A DNA stretch of 36,703 nt. It comes from Candidatus Altarchaeum sp. (GTDB lineage Archaea; Altiarchaeota; Altiarchaeia; Altiarchaeales; Altiarchaeaceae). Below the pieces are notes generated by a model. That model ran no database searches and was not told the DNA's origin. It worked only from the letters and a program-made list of their open reading frames with translations. The first letter of the stretch is position 1, and every line of letters begins with the position of its first letter. Where the stretch lies: assembly GCA_018260755.1 (NCBI GenBank), contig JAGTWP010000002.1:1-36703 (forward strand). Reading direction: 5' to 3'. The translations under genes and the position numbers were made by a program. Positions 2,583 through 5,538 of the stretch are shown piece after piece.

Positions 2583-4205
2583 ATGACAGACGATGCAAAA
2601 AAGGCAACAAAATATATAAAAAATGTAAAATTTCCCCGCCTGACTATATTGATATTACTGGACTTGTTAATTCCACTGGTATTTTCAATCGTATTTTCGG
2701 ACTTTGTGTTTCTTTTATTGTTTGGGATTCCATCGGTCATAGCAACATTTGTGCCGGGGGGAATAAAGTACAGGCAGGCAGAGATAATAAATTTTATCTC
2801 AACAATAATTGAATGTATCATATTTGCGTTCGGAATTTTAATATCCAAAGAGTATGAAATATCTAATATCGTTTATATATCGCTTGCGGTGGCGATTTCA
2901 TTTACATTTGCGGCAAGAATTGCCATATACAGGACTTTAAAAATGTCACTCCAAAAAGCCATTGTAAGAAGCAGCATAAGATTGTTAATTGCGTTCTTCT
3001 TCTTCTCTTTTTTTAAGTTAGGAGATGTAAGATTTATGGGTGAACGGCTTGTGCTTATTGTCTCAATGTTTACCTTAATCGTCATAACTTTTATTTACTT
3101 ATTATCAAAGCCGTTTGAGAAAACAATAGGTATAAATCCTTTTGATATGGCGTGGGCATTTGCGAATGACTGGGTAAATGGCACTAATACTATTGAATCA
3201 TCACTTATGAAAGGAAGCGAGGAAGGAAACGTTGTTGTCCACATTATAAATTTTACTGACAAACACGGAAATTTAAAGGCAAATTTTATTATTCCTTACA
3301 TTCATCCCGGTCCCTTTGGAAATGTCGGAAGTGCGAACATGCCTAAAATTTTTCACGAAAATATAGAACATTCTTTTACCTTTCACGGCTCATGCACACA
3401 CGAATTAAATTTAATAAAAAACAGCGATGTTTATGCTATAATGAATGATATAAAAGAAGAAATAAGCCATCTTGCAGACAGGGACAATGAAAATGTATTA
3501 ACCGAATACGGGAAATTTATTTCGGACGGGAAAATTTCTGTATTGCAGGTGGATTCACCATATTTAGAAAGAGTTGTTTTTTGTGACGGAGACGGAGATA
3601 TTGATGTCGGAATAGGATTGGCATGCAGCAATGTGTTTATTGACCTGCACAGTTCGGGAAATGACGAAGAAATTACTACTGCCTCCACAAAAAGAGGTAT
3701 GGAAATTATAAATAAAGCAGGAAATTTAATAGTAAATTTAAAAGAGATTGAAAGTAAGAAAATACATCTGGGAATTGCAAAAGGCACTGTTCAGGATTGT
3801 GATGTCCGTGTCGCATTTTTTGATTTAAATGAGCCATTTGCATTATTATTATTTGATTCAAACAATATGCAAAACCGGGAAATTTTAAATATATTAAGGC
3901 AAAAATTTAAATTTCCCATCTTTATCTGCACGACAGATGACCATCAGAGAGATAACGGAAAATTTATGATTGAAATTGTCAAAGATGATGTTAATGATGT
4001 TTCAAATTTAATTGAAAAGGCAATGAATGATATATGTGATGTATATGTTAAATTCGGAAAAATTGAGAGAGATGTAAGGGTCATGGGAAGGGAATATGAA
4101 ATGTTACAGGCGGCAAATTTTATGACTGTGTTGCTGAAATTTTTACTTCCGTTTTTGATTTTTATTACTGTATTTTTTGTTTTTGTCGCGATTGTGATGC
4201 TGTAA
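2583..4205 (+). CDS. DUF2070 family membrane protein
   Basis: 540 aa; N-terminal TM helices, IIPYIHPGPFGNVGSANMP motif, C-terminal TM helix. Confidence 0.85.
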   Translation: MTDDAKKATKYIKNVKFPRLTILILLDLLIPLVFSIVFSDFVFLLLFGIPSVIATFVPGGIKYRQAEIINFISTIIECIIFAFGILISKEYEISNIVYISLAVAISFTFAARIAIYRTLKMSLQKAIVRSSIRLLIAFFFFSFFKLGDVRFMGERLVLIVSMFTLIVITFIYLLSKPFEKTIGINPFDMAWAFANDWVNGTNTIESSLMKGSEEGNVVVHIINFTDKHGNLKANFIIPYIHPGPFGNVGSANMPKIFHENIEHSFTFHGSCTHELNLIKNSDVYAIMNDIKEEISHLADRDNENVLTEYGKFISDGKISVLQVDSPYLERVVFCDGDGDIDVGIGLACSNVFIDLHSSGNDEEITTASTKRGMEIINKAGNLIVNLKEIESKKIHLGIAKGTVQDCDVRVAFFDLNEPFALLLFDSNNMQNREILNILRQKFKFPIFICTTDDHQRDNGKFMIEIVKDDVNDVSNLIEKAMNDICDVYVKFGKIERDVRVMGREYEMLQAANFMTVLLKFLLPFLIFITVFFVFVAIVML

Positions 4206-4261: not shown

Positions 4262-4927
4262 ATGATTTTGGGCTTTTACGGGAATTCAAATTCAGGAAAG
4301 ACCACATTGATAGAGAAAATTTGCAGGAAATTAAAAAAGGAAAATTTAAAAATTGCAGTTATTAAGCATATTCCCCACAAAAATTTTTCCATTGATATCA
4401 AAACAAAAGATACGGGAAAATTTAAAAATTTGGGAGTTGATGTCGTTGCATTTTCTCCCGATGAGACGGCTTTTATACTTGACGGGATGAATTTTAGCGA
4501 TATGATTTCCAAATTAGAACATATAGACAGTTATGATGTCCTTTTGGTTGAAGGACTAAAAAAACAGAATATTCCGAAAATCAGAGTGGGGGATTGCCCA
4601 ATGGAAAGTAAGACAATAATAGATTATAAAGGTCCAAACGATTTAAAAACTATTTTAAAATGGATAAAAAACGAGATTCAAAAAGAGGAAAAGGAGTGGG
4701 AAGAAAAAAAGAAGATTTTGGTACGGATAATACGAGGGGAAAAGATAAGAACAACAAAGTTAAAAGGGACGAAGGTAAGAACGACAAAGTTAAAAGAGAG
4801 AGGGGTAAGAACGACAAAGTTAAAAGAGAGAGGGGTAAGAACGACAAAGTTAAAAGAGAAGAAAGTAAGAACGACAAAGTTAAAAGGGAAGAAGGTAAGA
4901 ACGACAAAGACAATAAAGACGAAGTAA
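4262..4927 (+). CDS. mobB: Molybdopterin-guanine dinucleotide biosynthesis protein MobB (zero-frame product, basic repeat tail)
   Basis: P-loop GNSNSGKTTLIEKI, AVIKHIPH, DVLLVEGLKK; then a tail of VRTTKLKERG repeats. Confidence 0.8.
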   Translation: MILGFYGNSNSGKTTLIEKICRKLKKENLKIAVIKHIPHKNFSIDIKTKDTGKFKNLGVDVVAFSPDETAFILDGMNFSDMISKLEHIDSYDVLLVEGLKKQNIPKIRVGDCPMESKTIIDYKGPNDLKTILKWIKNEIQKEEKEWEEKKKILVRIIRGEKIRTTKLKGTKVRTTKLKERGVRTTKLKERGVRTTKLKEKKVRTTKLKGKKVRTTKTIKTK

Positions 4928-5064
4928 TTGTTATCGTGAATGGAAAAAGATTACCGATGGGAAATTTTCCGAAAAAGATAATAAAAGAGATTGTTGTAGC
5001 GATGGTATCTTCATTAAGAGGCGGAGAAGGAGTGGAAGAAATAGAGATAAATATTATAAAATAA
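4660..5064 (+). CDS. -1 frame continuation carrying the C-terminal domain expected of archaeal MobB
   Basis: Ends VIVIVNGKRLPMGNFPKKIIKEIVVAMVSSLRGGEGVEEIEINIIK, resembling the C-terminal segment of archaeal MobB-type proteins; overlaps the MobB ORF in the -1 frame. Confidence 0.6.
   Translation: MDKKRDSKRGKGVGRKKEDFGTDNTRGKDKNNKVKRDEGKNDKVKRERGKNDKVKRERGKNDKVKREESKNDKVKREEGKNDKDNKDEVIVIVNGKRLPMGNFPKKIIKEIVVAMVSSLRGGEGVEEIEINIIK
4747..4920 (+). repeat. 30-bp tandem repeat (5 full copies plus a partial), open in more than one frame
   Basis: aagaacgacaaagttaaaagagagaggggt repeated at 4747, 4777, 4807, 4837, 4867 and partly from 4897. Confidence 0.95.
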
Positions 5065-5088: not shown

Positions 5089-5538
5089 ATGAGGGTTAAT
5101 ATGGTTGATATTTCGGAAAAAGACATTGTTGAAAGAATCGCAATTGCAGAAGGAAAAATTTATCTAAAAAATGAAACAATAAACAAAATTTTAAAAAAAG
5201 AAATCAAAAAAGGCGATGTATTAACAGTCGCAGAAATTTCAGCAATAAACGCAGTTAAAAAGACCCCGGATTTAATTCTGTTGTGCCATCAGATTCCGAT
5301 AGCAAATGTTGATGTCTATTTTAAAATTAATGAAAAGGAAAATTCAATAACTGCAAATGTTAAGGTTAAGACAATTGCAAAAACAGGTGTTGAAATGGAC
5401 GCATTGACTGGAGTAACCGTTGCATTGCTGACAATCTGGGATATGACAAAGTATCTTGAAAAAGACAATAAAGGACAATACAAAACAACAAAAATAAGTG
5501 ATATTGAAGTTATTGAAAAAATTAAAAAAGAAAAATAA
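5089..5538 (+). CDS. moaC: Cyclic pyranopterin monophosphate synthase MoaC
   Basis: [39 protein letters not shown]. Confidence 0.93.

Follow-up and report, generated by a model that had tools for sequence, protein, structure and literature searches.

Archaeal MobB/FeS proteins (NCBIfam PRK14494.1-1 to -4) consist of a MobB GTPase N-terminus (TIGR00176/PF03205), which is joined in a single continuous frame to an FeS segment with a Cys motif and then to a C-terminal domain (CTD). Changes of reading frame within a gene are known from both bacteria and archaea. The E. coli dnaX frameshift relies on an SD stimulator and a hairpin. A review (PMC5009743) ties the high slipperiness of A_AAG and A_AAA_AAG in E. 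coli to the presence of only one tRNA-Lys; in Thermus, where there are two, dnaX depends on polymerase slippage. The same review gives a predicted A_AAA_AAR case in the methanococcal magnesium chelatase. The only experimentally supported archaeal -1 programmed ribosomal frameshift is that of fucA1 in Saccharolobus solfataricus, where the slip takes place at A_AAA_AAT, and the archaeal ribosome is thus able to slip (PMC8211752). In fucA1, the overlap of 40 nt is accompanied by a putative stem-loop and rare codons, and the protein is full length in most Sulfolobales.

Here we describe the mobB locus of a species of Candidatus Altarchaeum, an uncultivated archaeon, in a DNA stretch of 36,703 nt (the window), which is contig C13 of a draft genome of 1.32 Mb in 78 contigs (G000). 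Together with the congeners G001, G002 and G003, the comparison covers four independently assembled Ca. Altarchaeum species. Genome-wide statistics refer to a 378-kb sample of G000 stretches, made up of the window and L110-L129, rather than to the whole genome, and to the 222 long ORFs in this sample.

Compared with MobB/FeS proteins, Ca. Altarchaeum has charged tandem repeats in place of the FeS segment, and its CTD lies in the -1 frame. The locus resembles fucA1 in having two ORFs that overlap in -1 phase, an A-rich heptamer and a protein that is continuous in relatives. It differs from fucA1 in its variable heptamer, in the lack of a stem-loop common to the species, in having its layout fixed throughout the genus and in the strong start codon of the downstream ORF. 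The window species also resembles bacterial dnaX in its A_AAA_AAG with an upstream purine box, but, unlike E. coli with its single tRNA-Lys, it has two Lys tRNAs, avoids SD motifs at starts and shows no shared structure. The explanation we favor, with a probability of roughly 55% judging from sequence comparison, is that mobB underwent fission into a pair of overlapping genes, an arrangement now conserved, and that translation of the CTD begins at ATG 4660. No paper on recoding of Altarchaeum mobB was found in the literature.

A sequence-only reading of the window had instead proposed a programmed -1 slip in mobB at A_AAA_AAG, aided by an SD-like stimulator and citing the Sulfolobus fucosidase as archaeal precedent. 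The precedent is genuine, and the landmarks were located exactly: both in-phase heptamers, the purine box at its 8-nt distance, and the -1 frame, which is open from 4630 and runs to a stop at 5062-5064 with the C-terminus it had given (Table 1). The CTD is real, belongs to MobB and is conserved in the -1 frame; the heptamer and the box did not hold up as evidence of a slip.

Table 1. Features of the mobB locus, in window coordinates
Feature	Position	Strand	Evidence or remark
DUF2070 membrane protein, upstream neighbor	2583..4205	+	PF09843, E 1.6e-67
mobB, frame-0 ORF, 221 aa	4262..4927	+	PF03205, E 1.2e-23; TIGR00176, E 3e-27
TATAAA, read as Tyr-Lys in frame 0; lies 29 nt upstream of ATG 4660 and may be a TATA box for an internal, nearly leaderless transcript	4625..4630	+	in 4/4 species
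Internal start context ATTTTAAA-ATG, matching the genome start motif	4652..4662	+	identical in G003 and G001; TTATAAA-ATG in G002
-1-frame ORF from the internal ATG: variable linker and CTD, 134 aa; proposed separate gene product	4660..5064	+	first ATG of the -1 ORF in 4/4 species
In-phase heptamer A_AAA_AAC	4666..4672	+	kept in G000, G001 and G003; absent from G002
Purine box AAAAGGAG, termed SD-like	4689..4696	+	ends 8 nt before the 4705 heptamer; not conserved in G003 or G002
In-phase heptamer A_AAA_AAG, candidate slip site	4705..4711	+	also at this position in G001; shifted one codon upstream in G002; replaced by G_AAA_AAG in G003
Linker in frame -1, mostly 30-nt tandem repeats (KNDKVKREEG) replacing the FeS segment of relatives	4712..4923	+	codon score
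CTD of archaeal MobB/FeS proteins (VIVIVNGKRLPMGNFPKKIIKEIVVAMVSSLRGG...)	4924..5064	+	profile match; selection in frame -1
moaC, downstream neighbor	5089..5538	+	profile match; directly downstream in all three congeners too

A frame change shared by four species

In frame 0, mobB scores above the curated cut-offs of both MobB profiles (83.9 bits against 26.6 for PF03205 and 95.5 bits against 76.2 for TIGR00176). The P-loop GTPase domain spans residues 1 to ~123 and is followed by a helix extension to residue 150. Residues 151-221, rightly described before as the basic repeat tail in which the unshifted protein ends, are unconserved and read through the repeats. A match of the -1 ORF to positions 180-225 of PRK14494.1-1 (E 1.8e-5) independently assigns the C-terminal domain to archaeal MobB, and the CTD of G003 matches PRK14494 with E 6.8e-8; the CTD match falls below the whole-protein cut-off because the CTD is only part of the protein. 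The N-terminal part of the locus belongs to MobB and the C-terminal part is the PRK14494 CTD, but two defining properties of PRK14494 are missing. The FeS segment is absent from the locus in the window species, where a KNDKVKREEG linker without Cys occupies the space between MobB and CTD, and none of the four Ca. Altarchaeum species has the single continuous frame.

All four species share the same layout, with the MobB GTPase in frame 0 and then a repetitive linker and the CTD in frame -1. Two other genera of the class carry mobB as one uninterrupted gene. Among the congeners, none shows the fusion that the sequence-only reading had named as counter-evidence. The closest three mobB-bearing relatives are the Candidatus Altarchaeum/Altiarchaeales genomes HURL_140, CG2_30_32_3053 and A3, and no further relatives were found among the plasmids or viral contigs searched. 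From the overlap to the moaC start, the species differ in length by 27, 105 and 120 nt. Each difference is a multiple of three, and so the -1 offset has been kept constant.

We used simulated substitution tests with BLOSUM scoring to ask which frame is under selection. All six species pairs show constraint on MobB in frame 0. For the CTD, purifying selection in frame -1 is seen in five pairs (BLOSUM p 0.002 or less), with the sixth pair, G000-G001, at p 0.058. Codon usage in the linker gives frame -1 scores of 16.3 in the window and 12.9, 9.6 and 6.7 in the other species, against 1.6, -2.4, 0.7 and 1.4, in the same order, for frame 0. Constraint on frame 0 extends as far as the A-rich site at ~4710 (BLOSUM p 0.0075), and the substitution test detected no amino-acid constraint on the -1 frame between 4660 and 4710. 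Coding in frame 0 before the A-rich site and in frame -1 after it is conserved across species. No other convincing long same-strand frame transition was found in the 378-kb G000 sample; a second candidate, in Hsp20 (L127:6640-7283), turned out to be false, as its zero frame ends normally.

The frame-0 tail varies among species from 72 aa down to 3-4 aa. A functional tail was rejected because its openness is no greater than chance and because a stop ends it at once in G002, and the tail, at most 72 residues long, seems to be a by-product.

The linker has been rebuilt from tandem repeats that differ by species: 30-nt units in the window (4742-4909) and 21-nt units coding CKKDEVN in G002, while the linker is short in G001 and G003 (linkers compared in L024 and L026). 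As for the downstream neighbor, moaC perhaps starts at ATG 5101 (MVDISEK...) instead of 5089 (window 5089-5103).

A candidate start codon inside mobB

According to the explanation we favor, mobB would have been split in the Ca. Altarchaeum ancestor when the reading frame changed within the linker that joins the MobB GTPase to the CTD. MobB would be translated in frame 0 from 4262 and carry a meaningless tail up to whatever stop comes next. The linker-CTD protein would be translated in frame -1 from ATG 4660, using the native SD-free start signal (TTTAAA-ATG), and the separate CTD would presumably act beside MobB in molybdenum/tungsten cofactor synthesis. The layout is conserved, both parts are under selection in their own frames and the ATG lies in a start-like context; initiation at 4660, the separateness of the products and the continuing cooperation of the two are what we infer.

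The native start motif was learned from 220 predicted starts in long ORFs of G000 and scored over positions -12..+11. It is T-rich and then has AAA directly before the ATG (TTTAAA-ATG-like), with A at -3..-1 in 79%. SD motifs accompany only 4% of ORF starts, compared with 20% of out-of-frame ATGs taken as background. Such avoidance of SD motifs at the genome's starts speaks against the proposed SD-like stimulator. The anti-SD CCTCC is retained in the G000 16S gene despite the SD-poor starts.

ATG 4660 heads the -1 ORF and stands 6-10 codons past the upstream stop in all four species, so that the second ORF begins with a conserved in-frame start codon in a native initiation context. This context falls in the 98-99th percentile of the 220 predicted starts in three species and in the 59th in G002. 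In those three species, no other sampled -1-frame ATG inside long ORFs scores equally high. Since the ILKW codons alone yield a start-like string, we compared the real sequence with synonymous recodings, of which only 4.3, 1.7 and 1.6% are as start-like in the three species and 12.6% in G002. After this control (p 0.016-0.13), and with the four species sharing ancestry, the case for a start signal at ATG 4660 may be called moderate, although its signals agree in direction. Moreover, no species has a stop in the -1 frame between the ATG and the A-rich site, whereas recoding keeps this stretch open in only 10-12% of cases (32% for G002). A slip at 4705-4711 needs no open -1 frame upstream but an internal start does, and therefore the openness favors the internal start.

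The TATAAA ahead of the ATG is weak evidence, because the coding requirement explains it; TATA-like positions showed no peak upstream of G000 gene starts. We also considered an SD-led internal start at GTG 4696, or at neighboring ATGs in G002 and G003, and rejected it, because G001 carries GCG at this position and the genome avoids SD motifs.

An internal ATG is a simpler route to CTD expression than a programmed slip. It is supported by the position of this ATG as the first in all four species, its start context, the open -1 frame, the SD-free starts of the genome, the variable frame-0 tails and the stand-alone CTD at locus L009 (see below). On the other side, 13 of the 14 CTD-bearing loci read outside Altarchaeum encode the CTD as a fusion with MobB, and so physical linkage may matter. 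Furthermore, the lack of -1 constraint at 4660-4710 and the frame-0 constraint up to the A-rich site fit a switch at that site equally well.

Slippage at the A-rich site and other alternatives

Such a switch could be a programmed -1 ribosomal frameshift at the A-rich Lys codons (4705-4711), giving a minority or majority of MobB-linker-CTD fusion in addition to unshifted MobB. We rank this explanation second and hold it only tentatively. The frame-0 constraint that reaches the site, the strong -1 coding signature thereafter and the -1 offset preserved through indels in multiples of three are all in its favor. In addition, all four species have the dicodon AAA AAG following an A or G, a fused MobB-CTD is the norm in other archaea, and both fucA1 (PMC8211752) and the predicted magnesium chelatase case (PMC5009743) offer precedents.

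The heptamer itself, however, is common in the genome: in-phase A_AAA_AAG was observed 91 times in the 222 long ORFs of the 378-kb sample, compared with 65 expected, and another copy lies inside mobB itself, near 4333. Given the amino acids, the chance of finding it in the K/E-rich overlap is 0.28-0.50 per species. Nor is a slippery heptamer conserved at one position in the orthologs, as A_AAA_AAG stands at codon 17 in two species only, being displaced in G002 and imperfect, with A5, in G003. The purine box fares no better across the orthologs, and an ordinary gene in the window shows the same pairing of heptamer and purine box. Downstream of the site, no fold is common to the four species (z -0.36, -0.18, -0.61 and -2.23), which led us to reject a hairpin as stimulator; neither a downstream structure nor an upstream stimulator is conserved. 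The window's genome encodes both tRNA-Lys UUU and CUU, the latter also present in G002 and G003. The tRNA-Lys(CUU) should hold AAG in frame, whereas the slipperiness in E. coli is tied to a single tRNA-Lys (PMC5009743). Finally, a frameshift leaves the open upstream -1 frame and the start-like ATG 4660 unexplained. A genus-wide programmed -1 ribosomal frameshift in an archaeal housekeeping gene that sets the amounts of MobB with and without the CTD, and does so in the presence of both Lys tRNAs with no RNA structure, SD stimulator or conserved heptamer to help it, seems rather unlikely. The other heptamer, A_AAA_AAC at 4666, was rejected as the main slip site, since it is absent from G002 and frame-0 constraint continues beyond it.

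Third, RNA polymerase might slip on the A-run and add or drop an A, so that part of the mRNA pool would be in frame for the fusion. The runs comprise 7, 7 and 8 A in three species, and Thermus, likewise with two Lys tRNAs, resorts to slippage at dnaX (PMC5009743). The ORFs of the 378-kb sample contain fewer in-phase A_AAA_AAA than expected (111 against 178), a pattern that would fit long A-runs being costly, while A_AAA_AAG, A_AAA_AAC and A_AAA_AAT are enriched. The run in G003, however, is only A5 and yet the layout is the same -1 layout, and we consider polymerase slippage improbable.

It is less likely still that mobB is decaying and that the CTD is the pseudogene tail of an inherited frameshift. 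The mobB N-part of G001 (L025/L056) does carry an insertion of 170 nt, in which a 45-nt repeat (AACCTCACTTCGTTCGGATATTTCAAAATCTGATGATTTAAAAAT) recurs about four times; the insertion interrupts the MobB domain and shifts the frame after residue 31. However, the selection on MobB in all pairs and on the CTD in all but one at p 0.002 or less, together with the maintained -1 codon usage in the linker, speaks against decay. An assembly or sequencing error in the A-run has a negligible probability: homopolymer runs are error-prone and the genome is a draft, but the same offset occurs in four independently assembled species with differing run lengths, and its recurrence in all three congeners excludes a single-genome A-tract error.

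The preferred reading, a split mobB with an internal start, suggests that a conserved, uncharacterised MobB CTD may work without covalent linkage, and also that gene callers are likely to miss or mislabel the CTD here. Natural tests of the ways in which archaea express a broken gene are rare, and this genus-wide frame change, in a cofactor-synthesis gene whose two halves are both under selection, is one of them: the means could be slipping ribosomes, slipping RNA polymerase or internal initiation.

The CTD in other archaea

A stand-alone CTD ORF of 55 aa is found in another archaeon (L009 in G035, 1498-1662; NCBIfam E 8.5e-9). As in Ca. Altarchaeum, the CTD is encoded apart from mobB, but at a distance from it, whereas the Altarchaeum pair overlaps. 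The neighbors of the L009 ORF are a membrane transporter-like gene on one side and an aminotransferase-like gene on the other.

In most archaea the CTD occurs beside MobB, which suggests that it takes part in molybdenum/tungsten cofactor maturation. A search for solved structures gave no match to the CTD. Its AlphaFold model alone is weak (pLDDT 66), and the domain is uncertain in the model of a fused relative too.

In one further locus, L013 (G059, 1501-1650), the mobB CTD is cut by an in-frame TAG at a position where the close relative L012 has Glu; this TAG could be a nonsense mutation or a case of recoding.
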